This document shows, one piece after another, positions 15,640 to 58,300 of a stretch of 64,000 bases of DNA. Numbering within the stretch: the stretch's first letter is position 1; the number at the start of each line of letters is the position of its first letter. This DNA comes from Tretioscincus oriximinensis. Taxonomy: Eukaryota > Chordata > Lepidosauria > Squamata > Gymnophthalmidae. The position numbers and the translations under genes are program-made. Below the pieces are notes generated by a model. That model did not search any database. It was not told the DNA's origin and worked only from the letters and a program-made list of their open reading frames with translations. The stretch spans positions 355,091-419,090 of the forward strand of contig JAJVDF010000297.1 in assembly GCA_022410635.1 (NCBI GenBank). Reading direction: 5' to 3'.

Positions 15640-15790
15640 CTTATTCTGGGTTAAATCGTGGTACAGAGCTTGGCCACCCACATGCCAGTGGGGACAATGG
15701 CAGGCACCCTTTGTGGCCTGCCATAGTCTACACTAGCATGCAGATGGCAGGTTCCTATTCTGAGATACAGCTCAGCAAGTCTGGAACTAG
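15640..15790. mobile_element. Palindromic element, TTATTCTGGGTTAA family
   Basis: It shares GCCTTATTCTGGGTTAA, the GCCTGCCATAGTCTACAC core and TATTCTGAGAT with the copies at 17028, 17424 and 18125. It lies in ODC1 intron 1. Confidence 0.55.
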
Positions 15791-16073
15791 CCAATGCTTT
15801 ATTTCAGAAATACCCAAGTACAGCGTAGTAAGGCTGCACCCGGCCATCGCTGCCTCGTTGCGCCACCCTTTCATATGCCAAATTAAAACCCGCTTTACTC
15901 CGGAATGCGCACTGAATGAAAGCGGAATGAATGCAAGAGAGGGGTGTAAATGGATGTGGCTTCCAGTCAGCGTCATCCGCAGGCAGCCTGAAAGAAAACG
16001 TGGCAAAGCCGAAAGCGCTGCTGCCGCCTTTCGCAATCCTGGCCCCCCAGTGAGAAGACGCGGAATCCCTTGA

Positions 16074-16079
16074 CACGTG
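16074..16079. promoter_or_regulatory. ODC1: E-box CACGTG in ODC1 intron 1 (distal)
   Basis: This is one of two CACGTG sites in the first intron. Mammalian ODC1 has paired intron 1 CACGTG elements bound by MYC/MAX; this site is in the corresponding place. Confidence 0.6.
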
Positions 16080-16271
16080 ACGGCACGCAGTTCCCCGCGT
16101 CCACACATTCGTTCGCGCTCATTCCTCGCCTCTTCTCCCTTCCCCGCCCCGTCGCTGGCAAGCGGGGCCAAGTCATCGCCGCCGCCGCCGCCGCCATCCT
16201 GGCCACCAAGGTCGCTTCGCCCCGGCACCGCCGCCCGGCACCGCCTTCCCCTGCCCGCCGTCCCGGCACCC

Positions 16272-16277
16272 CACGTG
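16272..16277. promoter_or_regulatory. ODC1: E-box CACGTG in ODC1 intron 1 (proximal)
   Basis: The site lies just inside intron 1, 18 bp past the exon 1 splice donor and 193 bp from the second CACGTG. Its position matches the MYC-responsive pair in mammals. Confidence 0.65.
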
Positions 16278-16300
16278 CCCGCGCCGTCCCGCTCCCTTAC

Positions 16301-16598
16301 CGCAGGCGGGCTTGGGCTTCTCCTTCTTCCTTCTTCAGCAGCAGCAGCCGCTTCCTGCCTCCCCTGCGCGGCAGCCGGCGGAGCTGGACAGGCGGCGGGT
16401 CAGGGTGGCCTTGGAGGGCCTGGAAGGAACCGGCTGCCAAGTGAGGCGGCGAAGAACTGGCGCTGCTGTTCCGCCTCCTCCTCCTGCTGCCGCCTGCCTG
16501 CCCGCCCGCCCGCCCGCCGCGCAGGGTTAGTAGCCGCCGCCGCAGCTGCTGCTGCTGCTGCTGCTGCTTCCGCCGCCGCCGCGTCTCGCCTGGTGTGA
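16301..16598 (-). other. ODC1: ODC1 non-coding exon 1 (GC-rich 5'UTR)
   Basis: The 3' edge is a clear splice donor: on the minus strand CCTGCG is followed by GTAAGG (16295-16300). The 5' edge near 16598 is inferred from the TATA box at 16625-16630. The exon is very GC-rich, contains a CAG-type triplet run and GGC runs, and has no ATG on the minus strand, so no upstream start codon arises here. A long, structured 5'UTR is typical of ODC1 and restrains its translation. The exact start cannot be set without transcript data. Confidence 0.75.
16545..16568 (-). repeat. CAG-type triplet run in the ODC1 5'UTR
   Basis: There are about eight GCT units on the plus strand (AGC/CAG on the transcript strand), directly followed by GCC/GGC units. 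The run falls inside exon 1, so it is transcribed into the 5'UTR. Confidence 0.75.
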
Positions 16599-16624
16599 CA
16601 AAAGCGCCCGCCGCAGAGGCTGAA

Positions 16625-16630
16625 TTTATA
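16625..16630 (-). promoter_or_regulatory. ODC1: TATA box of ODC1
   Basis: On the minus strand the sequence reads GGGCTATAAATTC, about 325 bp upstream of the exon 1 donor. It is a lone TATAAA in very GC-rich surroundings, as in mammalian ODC1, which also has a TATA promoter. Confidence 0.75.
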
Positions 16631-16732
16631 GCCCGGCCTCGTTTCCACGGCAACACACCAGCTCAAACCAGCCCCGATCGGCTGCGACCGGGGAAGCGGC
16701 CTTCGCCAGCCAGCAGGCAGCCGCCGCTATTA

Positions 16733-16740
16733 TGACGTCA
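16733..16740 (-). promoter_or_regulatory. ODC1: Perfect CRE (TGACGTCA) upstream of ODC1
   Basis: This palindromic CREB/ATF site lies about 105 bp upstream of the TATA box. cAMP-responsive control of ODC1 is well known in mammals. Occupancy here is inference. Confidence 0.65.
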
Positions 16741-16820
16741 GGTGGCGGCAGCGAACGCGAGCGTGGCATGTCAGAAGCGAGCATCTCCTCCCCCTCTTCT
16801 CTGAAAATGGTGGGTGGGGA

Positions 16821-16836
16821 GGCCACGCCCCCTCCT
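16821..16836 (-). promoter_or_regulatory. ODC1: GC box / KLF-Sp type site upstream of ODC1
   Basis: On the minus strand the motif reads GGAGGGGGCGTGGCC, a good match to an Sp1/KLF site, about 190 bp upstream of the TATA box. It is motif evidence only. Confidence 0.4.
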
Positions 16837-17027
16837 TTGGGAGCGAGGCCAGCGTGGATGTAGGGCGAAATCGGGATAAGGCCAAGGTCGGGACGGAGCT
16901 GACGAGGCGCTTATTGCGTCTCCCTCTGGCCTCCCCAGCACCACCCGTATTCTCTAATCGTGTGAAATTTCCATCGAGACACGTCAACAATGTGGCTGCA
17001 TCCCACATCCCCTGTCCACACGGAGCC

Positions 17028-26581: not shown

Positions 26582-27057
26582 TAGGCTGACCAGATGACCC
26601 CTTTTTTGGGGGGGGGACTCAGTTTTGGGGTGTCTATCCTGCCCTCCTGGGGAGGGGCAACATTTCCCCGGGTTTTGCTGAGGAAAAATATATTTAAAAA
26701 AAATAATCACTACATCACCACTAGGCGGCCCTGGCATCTGGGGCCAGCTCCTGAAGGCACCCTCCCCTCAGTAAAAAATAAAAATTCTCTCACACTTTAA
26801 AAAAAAAACAAAAAACTGCACCACCACTAGGTGTCTCTAGCAACCGGGGCCAGCTCCTGAAGGCACCGTCCCCTTTGTAAAAATAAATTTAAAAAATCTC
26901 GCACACTTAAAAAAATTCCCACATGCTTCACAGATTTTTCGGGTGGGAATTTCGGAAGGGAATGTATGTTGGTGGGTAATTTGAGTATTTATGAACATGC
27001 AAATTAGCATGAATATTAATTACCCCGGTTTGAGCCTCAGAAAATCTGGTCAGTCTA
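26582..27057 (+). mobile_element. hAT-type MITE (TAGGCTGACCAGAT family), longest copy
   Basis: This 476-bp element with ends TAGGCTGACCAGAT and ATCTGGTCAGTCTA is flanked by a perfect 8-bp duplication TCATAGAA (26574-26581 and 27058-27065). It holds two tandem internal units (CACCACTAGG...CTCCTGAAGGCAC). The 8-bp duplication points to the hAT superfamily. Confidence 0.8.
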
Positions 27058-27699
27058 TCATAGAAAAGCAGGCCGAAACACAACTTAAAACCATAAAACA
27101 GGAATTCTGCCAGGAAGTACAGAAACAGGAAGCTGGCAGTTTGTTATTGTTTATTGCCATCTATAAGGCAGGTTAAAAATACAGCTAAATTAATGATGAA
27201 AACTGGGAAACTTCTTATTTCAAGAAGAACCAAAAATTATTTGAAGAGAACCAAAAATCCTTCCAGATTTTCCGAGGGAAAAGATGAATTGTCCTAATTT
27301 TGTTGGGGATATGAATGCTTGCAAGGGCTTTGAATTTTGCGTTTCATGTCTTGGCAACAATCACGGACGGAAATGGTATGTGTGGGTGAAATATTTGAAA
27401 CCTCTGCAACAGCATTACCTGCCTTGCCCTTTTGAATATCTGGAGGCAATGCAAAAAAGAAGCTATACATTTCCTGTGTAACACATTCAGCTTGTCTGCA
27501 GTCTTAATGAAATCTCTTGACAGCAGCAGACCGAAAATGCTAGTGAAACAGGATAAAGTTGTAGAATAGCAAAGGAAGTTATTTATGGTTAGAAAAAATG
27601 TAGGTAATTCTAGCTGAATCATAGACAAGATAGAAATCAAATAGGCAACTCCCAAGCTGTGACAACTATGAAATAGAAAGCTAGGCCATCTCTTCAGCT

Positions 27700-28420
27700 A
27701 TCCATGTTGGGGATGATTAGGAAAGGAATTGAAAACAAGTCATCAAATGTTGCTTTGCCTCTTTATAAATCTGTAGTGAGGCCACATTTGGAATACTGTG
27801 TTCAATTCTGGACATCACATCTCAAGAGGGATATTGTGGAACTAGAGAAGGTGCAGAAAATGGCAACAAAAATGATCAAGGGTCTGGAGCACCTCCCTTA
27901 TGAAGTCAGGCTGCAATGTCTGGGCCTCTTCAGCCTCGAAAGGAGATGTTTGAGAGGTGATCTGCATGGGATGGACAGGGTGAATAGAGAAAAAAATATT
28001 TTTTCTATCACACAACGCTAGGACCAGGGGGCACTTCTTAAAACCGATGGGTAGAAAAGTGAAAACAGACAAAGGAAAGTATTTTTTCACCCAGAGGGTC
28101 ATCGGCCTGTGGAATTTACTTCCTGAAGAGGTGATGGTAGCTAACAGCTTGGATAGTTTCAAGATAAGACTAGGCAGGTTTATGGACATCAAAGGCATAA
28201 ATGGCTACTAGGATGGATGTCTGGATGTTGCCTCCGGGATGGAGCAACAGGCAGGACTCCTTAAATGCCATTTGCAGGGAGTCATGAACAGGTGCATATT
28301 TTGCTTTCCTCTGTTCAGACTGCCCAGATGCGTCTAGTGGGCCTCTGTGCGAGACAGAATGCTGAACTAGGTGGGCTATGGCCTGATCCAATATCGCTCT
28401 TCTTATGTTCTTATGTTCAA
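27700..28420 (+). mobile_element. CR1 LINE 3' fragment with reverse transcriptase C-terminus
   Basis: The open stretch 27704-28021 encodes VRPHLEYCVQFWTSHLKRD, then GLEHLPYEVRLQCLGLFS and LERRCLRGDL, the conserved C-terminal end of CR1 ORF2. The reading frame then loses an internal EVYKIM segment and decays. The 3' end closes with the 8-bp tail repeat TTCTTATG. It is a dead, 5'-truncated LINE. Confidence 0.9.
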
Positions 28421-31355: not shown

Positions 31356-31367
31356 TCATAAATAATA

Positions 31368-31565
31368 TTTCAGAGAAATAGCCGTGTTAGTCTAGCAGAA
31401 AGTCCAGCAAAGGAGCTAGCAGCACTTTGAGACTAACTTGAGAAAAGTGGTTGGCATAAGCTTTCGTAGACACGTCTACATCTGAAGAAGTAGACCTGTC
31501 TACGAAAGCTTATGCCAACCACTTTTCTCAAGTTAGTCTCAAAGTGCTGCTAGCTCCTTTGCTGA
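31368..31565 (+). mobile_element. Foldback retro-type element with hammerhead-like core, copy 1
   Basis: It begins TTTCAGAGAAATAGCCGTG and folds back over arms of about 70 bp. The flanking 12-bp duplications TCATAAATAATA (31356-31367 and 31566-31577) are perfect. At the centre, CTGAAGA (31482-31488) is followed by a 5-bp hairpin and GAAA (31504-31507). Confidence 0.8.
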
Positions 31566-31649
31566 TCATAAATAATAGACATCCAAATGAGGGCAAAATG
31601 TGAGCTCGAGTCACGGACAATACGGATTAGGTTTCTCCCTCTTTCTTTA

Positions 31650-31693
31650 GCAAAGGAGCTAGTAGCTCCTTTGCTGGACTTTCTACTAGACTT
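31650..31693. mobile_element. Short derivative of the foldback element
   Basis: AGCAAAGGAGCTAGTAGCTCCTTTGCT continues into GGACTTTCTACTAGACT. Only the distal arm sequences remain, joined head to head, less than 100 bp from copy 1. Confidence 0.6.
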
Positions 31694-33005: not shown

Positions 33006-33610
33006 TAAGAACATAAGAACATAAGAACATAAGAAGAGCCATACTGGATCAGGCCACAGCCCATCAAGTCCAGCATTCTGTGTCACACAGAGGCCCACCA
33101 GATGCACCTGGGCAGTCCGAACAGAGGAAAGCAAAATATGCACCTGTTCATGACTCCCTGCAAATGGTATTTCAGGAGTCCTGCCTGTTGCTCCATCCCA
33201 GAGTCAACATCCAGACATCCATCCCAGTATCCATTTATACCCTTAGTGTCCATAAACCTGTCTAGTCCTGTCTTGAAACTGTCCAAGCTGTTAGCTACCA
33301 CTACCTCTTCAGGAAGTAAATTCCACAGGCCGATGACCCTCTGGGTGAAAAAATACTTTCCTTTGTCTGTTCTCACTTTTCTACCCAAGGAGTTTTAAGG
33401 AGTGTCCTCTGGTCCTTGTGTTGTGTGATAGAGAAAACATTTTTTCTCTATTCACCCTGTCGATCCCATGCATGATTTTGTACACTTCAATCAGATCACC
33501 CCTCAAACATCTCCTTTCAAGGCTGAAGAGGCCCAAACATTGTAGCCTTGCTTCGTAAGGGAGGTGCTCCAGACCCTTGATCATTTTTGTTGCCCTCTTC
33601 TGCACCTTGA
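33006..33610 (-). mobile_element. CR1 LINE 3' fragment
   Basis: A reverse copy starting at the AAGAACAT tail repeats. Its decayed ORF2 end (minus frame 33381-33605) reads IKGLEHLPYEARLQCLGLFS and LERRCLRGDLIEVYKIM. It closely resembles the copy at 27700-28420 and keeps the segment that copy lost. Confidence 0.9.
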
Positions 33611-36465: not shown

Positions 36466-36815
36466 TATTCATTCATTCATTCATTCATTCATACACACAT
36501 ACACACATACACACATACATACATACACACATACACACACACATACATACATACACACATACACACATGCATACATGCATACATGCATACATACACACAT
36601 ACACACATACACACATACACACATACATACATGCATACATACACACACACANACACACATACACACATACACACATACACACATGCATACATGCATACAT
36701 GCATACATACATACATATATACATACATACATACATACATACATACATGCATGCATGCATACATACATACATACATACATACATACAGACAGACAGACAG
36801 ACAGACAGACATATA
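36466..36815. repeat. Complex microsatellite (ATTC)n (ACACAT)n (ACAG)n
   Basis: About 350 bp of tetra- and hexanucleotide units with one n. It sits between a CR1 end and the 3' end of a minus-strand SINE, so it is at least partly an expanded SINE tail. Open frames of H/T/I and Y/V/C across it are artefacts. Confidence 0.95.
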
Positions 36816-37048
36816 TACCTCCCTATACTTGAAGGTCTCAGGGCGGCCAACCATAGGGGGGGCACACATAGCTTTTGTTGCTTTGTTCACAACAGGCACC
36901 CTGTGATGTAGGCAGGGCTGAGAGAGTTCTAAAGAATTGTAATTGGCCTGAGATCACCCAGCTGGTTTCCTGGAGGAATGTGGAATCGAAGTGGGAGACT
37001 ACCAGATAAGAATACAACGCTCTAACCACTACACCAAACTGGCTCTCT
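36816..37048 (-). mobile_element. Sauria-type SINE, reverse copy
   Basis: The 3' side CTTGAAGGTCTCAGGGCGGCC comes first, then CAGGGCTGAGAGAGTTCT, TCACCCAGCTGGTTTCCTGG, and finally ACTACACCAAACTGGCTCTC, the reverse of the SINE head. Confidence 0.85.
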
Positions 37049-40790: not shown

Positions 40791-41200
40791 ATGATCCTTC
40801 CAAGAGCAATAATTCTCCCATGTGCAGGAGGGTTTTTTTACATTAAATTGCAAAGTCTTGATTATAAATTTTGTTATGTGAGCATAGAATCCCTAAAACT
40901 TGGAGGATCAAAACTAATGAACAGTCGCGTCACTGATCAAGCTAAGAAACAAGGAAAAGTTTTGGGATGCCAAAGCTCCAACTTCCAGACAAGCTGTATT
41001 CTAAAGAAGAAGCTCAAATATATTAAACAGGCAATAAAAACACGGCATAAATGATACTGACACTGGTTATAAAGGAGCCTATACAGTTTGTTGAAAAGAA
41101 GAGAAATTATGTTCTAAAGGAGCAANGGAAAACTGGCTGAGGGGAGGTTGGATGAGGGGAGAAGTGCCACAGAGGGTCATGACTGTGGAAGTGAATACAG

Positions 41201-41390
41201 CAAAGGAGCTAGCAGCACTTTGAGACTAACTTGAGAAAAGTGGTTGGCATAAGCTTTCGTAGACAGGTCTACTTCTTCAGATGTAGACGTGTCTACGAAA
41301 GCTTCTGCCAACCACTTTTCTCAAGTTAGTCTCAAAGTGCTGCTAGCTCCTTTGCTGGACTTTCTGCTAGACTAACACGGCTATTTCTCT
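41201..41390 (-). mobile_element. Foldback retro-type element with hammerhead-like core, copy 2
   Basis: On the minus strand it runs from AGAGAAATAGCCGTGTTAGT to the CTCCTTTG arm. The flanking 13-bp duplications GAAGTGAATACAG (41188-41200 and 41391-41403) are perfect. The core CTGAAGA, hairpin and GAAA lie at 41280-41255 on the minus strand. Confidence 0.8.
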
Positions 41391-41754
41391 GAAGTGAATA
41401 CAGTGATTCTGCAGTCCTGCAGTGTTGCCACAATGGCTGTAAGTGCGCAACACCTTAAAACGGGCGCAACTGCGACGCCAGTTTCTCTGCAGCGGCACCC
41501 GCTGCTGTCATGTGTGCTGTGCGGGCTCTTAACCTGGAGAGGAAATGGACATGGATTTCAGCATCCATTTCGGATAGAATTTGGTAATTTTCTAAGCTCT
41601 TTCCAATCTGTTTTAGGTGTAGTGCAAATACAACCTCAGTGATGTAGATAAATGGCCAGGTTTTCTCTGTTTTGTTTAATGGCTCCATTTACATACCTTA
41701 GACCACAGTCATCAGTTAGCATGGTATGTGAGAGCAGCAAGCACCCGAGGGCAG

Positions 41755-53814: not shown

Positions 53815-53944
53815 GTGCACCTGAAGAAGTACTGTAGACTTGTCTACAAAAGCTCATGCCATCCACCATTTTCTTGTTAAGAGTCTGAAATGCTATATTT
53901 GCAAGATTTTCTGGATCTACATGAATACGGCTGTTTCTCTGAAA
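53815..53944 (-). mobile_element. Foldback retro-type element, degraded copy
   Basis: CTGAAGAAG...GTAGACTTGTCTAC..AAAAGCTCATGCC and the end ACGGCTGTTTCTCTGAAA match the family in reverse orientation. The GAAA of the core has become AAAA and no target duplication was found. Confidence 0.65.
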
Positions 53945-55385: not shown

Positions 55386-58300
55386 CTGAAAAAATTGTTG
55401 TAGAAAAGAATTAAACGCGTTGGTTGTCTAAACCATACTAGTACCTGAATCAAATACCGCAGTCCAAGCTGCAAATGAAATCTAGTTATACAGAATGTAG
55501 CATTTGCAAGGGAAAATGTCAAGGCTGATGAACGAAAAGGGAATGGCACACTTTTAGCATGACGCAGCTTATGAAGGCTGAGATCAGCGTTTTTGATCCA
55601 TTCCCTGTTTTTAACATTTGAAACTGATGACTACGGCGTGACTCTTGGCAGTGGGTATGTCAGAAATATATCTATAGCAATTCTGTTGCATTAAGTGAAA
55701 TGGAAATTACAGAGATATACCATATAGAGAGGTATGAAACACTTTGCTCTAGAATATTTATAGAAGCCAGGCACTCTGTTAGGTGGGTTATCATCCCTCC
55801 TGGGAGCAGCTTAGTGCACCTACCTGGAGACACATGGTCCTCTTAAAGAACTTAGGAATTTTCCAGGTCTGAGGGGTCAGAAGTTGCCATACCGTGTGTG
55901 CCATGATTATGTGGGGCTGTGCATATTAGGCCTGCATCAATTCCCCCAATCCCTCCCAGGCAAAAGGGCTGAAAATTCAGTGGTATGGCACTCTCCTTCT
56001 CTATCCTTATACTTTCTGCTTTAATCTTCTATGAAGTTGACAGAACCACTGGAGCTCCTCCAAAAGTAATACAGTTGAATTTCTATCAGTACCATACGGT
56101 ACGGAGTACAATTTGGCATAATGAGAATTTTTGTCCATGGCACCTGAAGTGTGCAATGCATTAGATTCAAGCATGAAATTTGTAACAAAGCTACATAATC
56201 TCTACGTAACTCTTTTGTTTCCACACTGAGTATGATATCCTTTGTCCCATATGGTGGGAAAAATATTAGACTCAATGTCCTATTTTTTTAGCTTGAATTT
56301 CTATGATTGCAAACTTGGACTTTGAGACTGTTTTTCAGTGCATTTCAGTACTTCTCCAATTGTTCTATTTCAGAGAAATAGCAGTGTTTAGAAAGACCAG
56401 CGAGGGACTTGTAGCACTTGGAGGCATCTGAAGAAGTAGACATATCTACGAAAGCTCATGCCACCTACCTTTCTCCTGTTAGTCTCCAAGTGCTAAAAGA
56501 CCCCTTGCTGGACTTTCCAATTATTCTACTACAGGTGAAACCCTGTTATAAAGAACCCTGATATAACAAAATTTGCAGTGTAACAAACAAATTTGAAAGT
56601 CCCTATGGAACACCCATAAGGATAATGCCGATTACAATGGGTTTTGTTATAACAAAATTTCATTGTAAGAAACAAGTTCACCTGACCCCTTGACGTTCAT
56701 TATAACAAGGTTTCATCTCTATTTATTTTCCCAGGTGATGGAATTTTTTTTATTTTGGTGAGAGTTTGTATTAGGTCACTGAGTCTAATATTTTGCTCAC
56801 CATGAAAAACAAAGGATATCTTACTCATTGTGGAGAAAAAAAAGAGCATGAAATTAAGTGTTATAAATTTCGTGCTTCAGTCTAGTATTTTGCACACCTC
56901 GGTAAGATGTGATTCCATCTGAGGTGCTACAGGAATGAAATCAGAACTCTCACCATCACTTGTGCATGCAAAACTGGATTTTGTTTTGATGAGAACACTG
57001 CTGGATTCAAGCCAGGCAATATAGTAATGATTCCCACCTCAGCTGAGTAATGGACAAAAATTCAGCAGACTGCATAGCACATTAACTTCCCATCATCAGA
57101 AGCAGCAGCGATCGGCAACAAGCCATGAATATGTCACTTTCCGGCACAAGGGACCCATCCCTAGAATCAATTATCAATGTTTTGCATACAGGAAGAAAAA
57201 AGCCAAACCCCACAGACGTATTGCTGTTATTTACAACATATTAACTCCTGTCGTTGCAGTTTTAAGCTTACCTTTTTTAATTTAAAAGTCACTTGTTTAC
57301 TCCCAACAGAGGTATCTTGTACACTAAGTGCTCCCACTCTTTCTTCCAATTTCAAACGCTCTCCAAGTGTTTTTCTGCAAAAGGCACAAGAGTAAAAGTA
57401 TAATTTCTTGTCCTTTTTCTTCAGCTCTTTATAAAGAAAAAAATAAAATGTCTAGTAAATTGCTATTTAAAATATGTTGATAAAAATTGAAAATCCCAAA
57501 AGTTTTATTACAGAGATTTTCTCCTTTAGACAATAGGCATACCAAAGGCTAATTTTTAAAGGGCCATCTATGTAATTGCACTGGTGTTTCTACTCTGTTA
57601 CGGAAATACAGAATACGCTTCATTTTATTAAGCAACAGAGTGTTTTAAGGCAAGTTTTATATGAAATCAAAGGAACAGCTTAAAACTAGGGATATACATC
57701 GACATTGACAACAAATTGTTTTTTGTATCAGCTTGGATAGTTTCAAGACAGGACTAGATAGGTTTATGGACACCATGGGTGCAAGGATGAATGTCTGGAT
57801 GCTGCCTTAGGGATGGAGCAACAGACAGGACTCCTGAAATGCCATTTGCAGGAAGTCATTAACAGGTGCATATTTTGCTTTCCTCTGTTCATACTGCCCA
57901 GTTGCATCTGTTGGGCTACTGTGTGAGACAGAATGCTGGACTAGATGGGCTCTGGCCTGATCCAGTATGGCTCTTCTTATGTTCTTTACAATAGGATATT
58001 GAGTATCAAGCAATTTTTCACAGGAATTTCATATGAACTTTGTAGAAATCAATCTCAAATCCAGTACGATTCTGCATTAATACCCCAGAAAATAACACAC
58101 TAATGGACAACTTTTCTATTGAGAGACAAATAGCTGCAAAATAGAATCAAGTGATAAACTGAAAGGATAAGAACTAAGCAATAGGTTGAAAGGATAAAAA
58201 GCAGCTTCTTTGTATTTATTTTTTGTAAAATTGTGGAATGAAATATCATTACACTCTCAGATTTTCCTACCCTGGAATTTCCAGCCCTCAATAAAGTGAT

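Follow-up and report, generated by a model that had tools for sequence, protein, structure and literature searches.

The foldback at positions 31368-31565 of the window (the whole 64,000-nt stretch analysed here) is a non-coding, non-autonomous product of a Penelope-like element (PLE). It consists of two copies of the element's pLTR unit placed head to head with nothing between them, and its hammerhead-like core is inherited from that pLTR. Comparison with further foldbacks from the same genome indicates that such structures are probably made by the PLE from two target-primed cDNAs, one per cut target strand, with a head-to-head join between them.

The 198-bp element is a near-perfect foldback in which inverted arms of 79 nt (31405-31483 and 31486-31564) are 97% complementary across a spacer of 2 nt. 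The coordinates and motifs given in an initial annotation of this DNA are all present in the sequence, and its description of a foldback stands, with arms longer than the approximately 70 bp it proposed. The perfect 12-bp target duplication it reported is likewise found, as TCATAAATAATA at 31356-31367 and again at 31566-31577, directly bounding the element. The predicted fold energy is -145.2 kcal/mol, compared with a mean of -50.6 kcal/mol for shuffled sequences (z -22). The two ends of the foldback are unequal. The tailed arm (31368-31479, minus strand) is a PLE end unit that runs from a putative distal reverse-transcription start site, CTCTGAAA, as far as +14, where GTAGAC lies at the foot of ribozyme stem II, while the untailed arm (31480-31565, plus strand) is an end unit extending from the RNA 5' region (ATCTGAAG) to a putative internal start site (TTTGCTG), its final base being ambiguous with the target duplication. 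The tail itself comprises the extra 37 nt of the left arm (31368-31404, minus strand), which lie between the distal and internal start sites and have no counterpart in the right arm. No open reading frame (ORF) of at least 110 aa overlaps the foldback, and none could fit within 198 bp; the element is therefore a derivative of a PLE and not autonomous.

Four further pieces of the same unit occur in the window. A second foldback (41198-41393, minus strand) is 99.5% identical to the first and has an equal centre and other flanks, where it is bounded by its own GAAGTGAATACAG direct repeats of 10-13 bp with ambiguous ends. An older foldback (56368-56515, plus strand) has a different join, in which the tailed arm ends CACTTGGAG and the untailed arm begins GCATCTG, and carries a 13-bp duplication with one mismatch. 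The remaining two pieces are a single diverged unit that does not fold back (53815-53944, plus strand), with an altered ribozyme G12 (CTACAAAAG) and a flanking repeat of just 6 bp, and a small separate foldback fragment of the unit (31649-31692, plus strand) with 13-nt arms 1 nt apart. The family-context pattern CTGANGAAGT..ACGAAAGCTYATGC matched three times in the window, each time within a copy of the unit, and in 0/100 shuffled sequences.

The identity of the unit emerged from the 1.54-Gb genome assembly. In the flanks of some foldback loci the unit stands by itself, preceded by TATAAA..CCCTCAGCATCTGAAG; at locus L025 a GIY-YIG frame terminates about 200 nt upstream of the unit, and a GIY-YIG frame at locus L042 reaches 29.3 bits (cut-off 22.6). 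A genome search for GIY-YIG returned 2213 first-look candidates, and all 150 that were scored exceeded the cut-off. Among 60 neighbourhoods examined from these 150 (20 returned loci and 40 picked lower in the list), the unit was detected in 57 with one probe and in 58 with a longer probe. It lies downstream of GIY-YIG and on the same strand in 56/60, is found elsewhere in L065 and L066, and is absent from L044 and L083. Two PLE frames of 555 and 517 aa, the two tested and those in which the reverse transcriptase (RT) domain is established, contain RVT_1 and GIY-YIG above cut-off with the unit downstream in each. The unit is therefore the pLTR of a PLE that is abundant in the Tretioscincus oriximinensis genome, and the link to Penelope-like elements that the initial annotation had considered plausible, and with it the link to an autonomous-type retroelement, is clear. 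The five top-scoring named proteins are from turtles (62-67% identity, covering no less than 99% of the query), and a gecko fragment shares 74% identity over 51%. Solved structures searched by sequence with one frame gave no match, and the unit's DNA patterns had 0 matches in viral contigs and 0 in prokaryote genomes.

The head-to-head arrangement is also present in copies of the element that retain coding remnants. In seven of the first 20 PLE loci a second unit lies inverted upstream, within inserts of 854-1437 bp. Four of these inserts have perfect target duplications of 12-14 bp, while those of L046 and L049 (10-11 bp, one mismatch) and L057 (7 bp) score below the cut-off of 9 used for foldbacks. 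One longer and one shorter unit end are present in 6/7, and L057 has two short ends. The ORF-less foldback takes this inverted-pLTR arrangement to its limit.

We compared 76 foldbacks, 41 obtained with 31368-31565 as the query and 35 more with the older copy; the two queries gave 542 and 2040 first-look candidates, numbers that are not copy numbers, and 40 were scored from each. A target duplication score of at least 9 was obtained for 37/41 first-query foldbacks, compared with 2/400 mispaired flanks, and for 32/35 later foldbacks, compared with 1/400. Two of the 37 lie in a microsatellite, leaving 35/39 informative cases. The duplications have a median length of 13 bp, span 9-20 bp when microsatellites are set aside, and are richer in A+T (0.75) than the flanks (0.62). 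Insertion by LINE machinery had been proposed for this element on the basis of its duplication; a retroelement with duplications of the target-primed type is upheld, and the machinery is that of a PLE rather than a LINE.

The outer ends of the foldbacks are two sites of the unit that match the ends of PLE copies. At PLE loci the unit copies fall into two end classes, 35/69 at reference positions 123-143 and 29/69 at 164-185, with 5/69 elsewhere. With positions numbered from the A of AGCATCTG, every one of the 35 later foldbacks pairs an arm ending at +88 to +102 with one ending at +125 to +132; the end-mapping probe stopped at +133, such that longer tails would look identical. The difference between the two ends is about 37-44 nt and varies among copies. 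Foldbacks with two long-ended arms, which the sampling could detect, number 0 among the 35 measured, while those with two short-ended arms are under-sampled because the samples were ranked by likeness to a foldback query.

A further signature of formation is found at the centre, where the two arms meet. Joins were read by script in 74 of the 76 foldbacks (L031 and L134 lack the script's anchor), and with L032, L114 and L126 left out, as a change inside an arm broke the walk, 71 joins were classified. These represent 27 distinct joins, 11 among 39 first-query copies and 17 among 32 second-query copies, with one common to both. The tailed arm, recognized by motif in 67 cases and by alignment in L016, L026, L109 and L140, is the more truncated in 71/71. 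In 48/71, spread over 10 different joins, it stops at the stem II base (+14), and the untailed arm starts at -1 to +4 in 69/71, with one base ambiguous as a C common to both arms. Here +1 is the A of AGCATCTG, approximately 31 nt downstream of a TATA box from which the transcription start is predicted. Filler directly before +1 ends in G in 6/9 distinct filled joins, where the genomic base is C (binomial p 0.01); the count becomes 6/11 (p 0.03) when the filled joins starting at genomic C (L116, L120) are added, and the second largest join class (17 unfilled joins, 17/71) has no G before +1. Reverse transcriptases can copy the RNA cap, and a filler G at this position is what would be expected from a copied cap. 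The signal is weak. The set of foldbacks suggests a template that was a capped RNA uncut by the ribozyme. The largest join class, that of 31368-31565 (GTCTAC^ATCTG), accounts for 23/71 joins and for 23/39 of the classified first-query copies. This class may partly have spread by copying as a unit, since its join, together with a small duplication, is found in the variants L018, L019, L021 and L032, and copies with a common join are non-independent.

Two individual copies count against formation from two cDNAs as outlined above. L043 (6090-6380) is a separate older foldback with a 12-bp duplication (CTGAGGGGTCTA), both arms near full length and traceable to distinct source alleles (CTGATGA versus CTGAAGA), and a scrambled filler in which the unit's 5' end is partially repeated several times. 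In the L020 foldback (987-1133) the untailed arm, as seen by eye, reaches upstream of the predicted start (TCCCTCAGCATCTG).

The origin of the two arms was assessed from their alleles in 44 head-to-head pairs (41 foldbacks, three counted twice through overlapping loci). Six variants are present in both arms of one copy, and four of these six have two or more occurrences among the 64 PLE-locus units, compared with 6/30 variants confined to one arm; a simulation with uniform mutation gave 0.09 chance coincidences of two-arm variants. Both arms are thus usually copied from like PLE RNA. In 15/76 foldbacks, however, the two arms disagree in their pool alleles, at one or two out of three sites. Five of the 15 differ by G/A at a CpG and may reflect later decay, and the remaining ten need two RNAs.

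Minimal hammerheads of PLEs were reportedly described by Cervera and De la Pena in 2014. The motif in the foldback (31479-31515, plus strand, predicted cut between 31511 and 31512) reads CTGAAGA, A, GTAGA-CCTG-TCTAC and GAAA at 31482-31507, followed by GC and TT. Both hammerhead boxes and helix II are present as annotated and constitute the PLE's own minimal hammerhead; helix III, annotated as minimal or absent, is effectively absent. The annotated extra A after CTGAAGA recurs after CUGANGA in 64/64 distinct copies and is therefore no local defect. PLE hammerheads are usually minimal forms without helix III (PMC6155905), and the combination of CUGANGA, helix II, GAAA and helix I within a pLTR, with no real helix III, is shared with those reported (PMC6155905, PMC7229834). 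The foldback departs from them in that helix I, which is 4 bp (GCAU/AUGC) in PLE copies, is cut to 3 bp (CAT/ATG), and in that the opposite arm pairs with its core. Across the 64 distinct copies (of 110), conservation of core positions is 85-100%, lowest at G12, which lies in a CpG, and 98-100% from C3 to A9. In the minimum-energy fold of the unit's first 45 nt (-8.5 kcal/mol), helices I and II are formed and a lone pair sits within the core; holding the core open gives -7.4 kcal/mol. The ribozyme fold would cost 2.2 kcal/mol in the 132-nt unit and approximately 42 kcal/mol in the foldback (-103.3 versus -145.2). The initial annotation had left activity uncertain; because the arms bury the core by this modelled margin, activity in the foldback copy is unlikely.

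Of the three outcomes that the annotation named as refuting its reading, two went against the ribozyme, while the third, on a link to an autonomous retroelement, went in favour of the element. Rfam hammerhead models gave no match, either at the gathering score across the window or at a relaxed E<=10 for three stretches, and the matches obtained were to hairpin (miRNA-type) and unrelated families only; failure of these models would fit a minimal PLE hammerhead without helix III. Compensatory change is essentially lacking, as a single two-sided pair-keeping change, T-A to G-U in helix II, occurs in 1/64 distinct copies and all other helix departures are one-sided or pair-breaking, in a young family whose little variation makes the covariation test weak. 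Cleavage was also considered as a source of the arm ends and rejected, since 0/74 foldbacks have an arm 5' end at the predicted cut between +35 and +36, a count in which such copies would be under-sampled. The hammerhead motif is thus real as sequence and as PLE heritage, is probably silent in the foldback and probably plays no part in making or running it.

In the mechanism we consider probable, a short RNA would be transcribed from the PLE promoter with its TATA box, starting at the A of AGCATCTG and spanning the pLTR unit, its hammerhead included. The PLE protein would make cuts in the two target strands, some 13 bp from each other, and prime reverse transcription from each. One cDNA would begin at the internal start, near +93, and extend to the RNA 5' end, while the other would begin at the distal start, at about +125 to +132, and fall short of that end, in most cases halting at the stem II base (+14). 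The two cDNA 3' ends would then be joined head to head, and gap filling would create the target duplication. In LINE twin priming the second target strand likewise serves as a primer and an inverted piece results; the foldbacks differ from its products in that their arms overlap almost fully, with one stretch of sequence copied twice. A more specific proposal, which we regard as rather doubtful though worth stating, is that two RTs of one PLE complex copy one short capped RNA in tandem. The leading RT would start at the internal site and park at the cap, and the trailing RT, with its distal start, would be halted 13 nt behind, which would explain the mixed start sites, the truncation of the tailed arm only and the recurrent stop at +14. 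Against this, the 10 to 15 of 76 allele-discordant foldbacks would need two RNAs, and a cDNA hairpin at stem II provides an alternative cause for the stop.

Formation from two target-primed cDNAs can be weighed against a single origin, in which one founder foldback arose from a PLE and spread in SINE-like fashion as a non-autonomous unit, from its own transcript and with PLE enzymes. The common borders and 99.5% identity of 31368-31565 and 41198-41393 speak for a founder, as do the predominance of one join among the first-query copies and the small-duplication variants that contain it, and the founder reading may still be true of that class. As an account of the whole set it is unlikely: the 27 distinct joins, and in particular 17 among 32 second-sample copies, are better explained by recurrent formation, two-arm variants are pool alleles more often than one-arm variants, arms differ by pool alleles in 15/76 foldbacks (10 without possible CpG decay), and the unit begins at the predicted RNA start, so that the promoter is left outside. 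Very improbable, in our assessment, is self-priming, in which one cDNA or antisense RNA folds back and copies its own arm. Although the head-to-head arms and near-palindromic centre resemble those reported for rotifer Penelope (PMC3846280), each arm ends at a different putative RT start site adjoining target DNA, the untailed arm contains 5' sequence missing from the tailed arm, and the commonest second-sample join appears to offer nothing evident on which a 3' end could prime. Self-priming would further need perfect centres and always-identical arms, whereas 10 to 15 of the 76 foldbacks have discordant arm alleles; this discordance and the asymmetry of the joins speak against one strand having primed itself.

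The two other readings concern what would drive the element. A working hammerhead, acting for example through cleavage and circular RNA as in retrozymes, could draw on the conservation of C3 to A9 and on the predicted fold of the first 45 nt, yet it is extremely unlikely given the lack of arm 5' ends at the cut, though such copies are under-sampled, the modelled burial of the core in the foldback, the single two-sided pair-keeping change and the lack of an Rfam match; furthermore, the Anolis PLE ribozyme is reported as dispensable for insertion in vitro (PMC11167929). A hairpin DNA transposon of the MITE/Foldback type, moved by a transposase, would share the long inverted arms and short duplications. 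We rejected this reading, to which we attach almost no probability, on its unequal and variable ends, its variable duplication length and the presence of the unit as terminal repeat in RT/GIY-YIG elements.

The field has no settled account of PLE insertion or of the high frequency of inverted ends among PLEs. For the rotifer Adineta vaga, self-priming was proposed and favoured for inverted pLTRs (PMC3846280). The elements in that report resemble those described here in their inverted head-to-head pLTRs, palindromes at inverted junctions, optional 31-bp tail, one pLTR shorter by 37 bp and target duplications of 8-10 bp. The T. oriximinensis foldbacks differ from the elements as reported there in that they have no ORF between the units, are numerous (76 fetched from the first-look candidates) and have joins that point to two target-primed cDNAs and not to self-priming. 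The PAc/Poseidon element of Anolis carolinensis also has a pLTR hammerhead, two RT start sites, to which its tail is mapped, and AT-rich targets, and its protein is reported to cut and extend both strands in vitro (PMC11167929), as proposed for the foldbacks. That report is an in vitro study whose main text contains no ORF-less head-to-head foldbacks, and the end sites found here lie on the pLTR unit, at about +93 and +125 to +132. More broadly, ORF-less PLE foldbacks are not described in the titles and abstract openings of the literature consulted. The genome holds a natural set of very simple PLE products: they are short, their two end sites are mapped, their 5' end is marked and their join can be seen. 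This set speaks more for two target-primed cDNAs than for self-priming, and counting its joins would allow the order of insertion events to be tested. If the tandem proposal were true, each foldback would be the footprint of a dimeric PLE complex.

Several features of the window and of related loci were also observed. A CATA tetranucleotide array of approximately 87 copies occupies 36470-36818, and elsewhere in the genome the adjacent foldbacks L002 and L019 lie inside a similar ATAC array. The open stretches at 27677-28021 and 33033-33398 have no Pfam match and, judged by eye, resemble LINE 3' coding pieces. Positions 26693-26915 contain about two tandem 106-nt units with 78% matches, and 15750-17000 is GC-rich (up to 0.71, compared with 0.41 for the window), resembling a promoter region of the CpG-island type.
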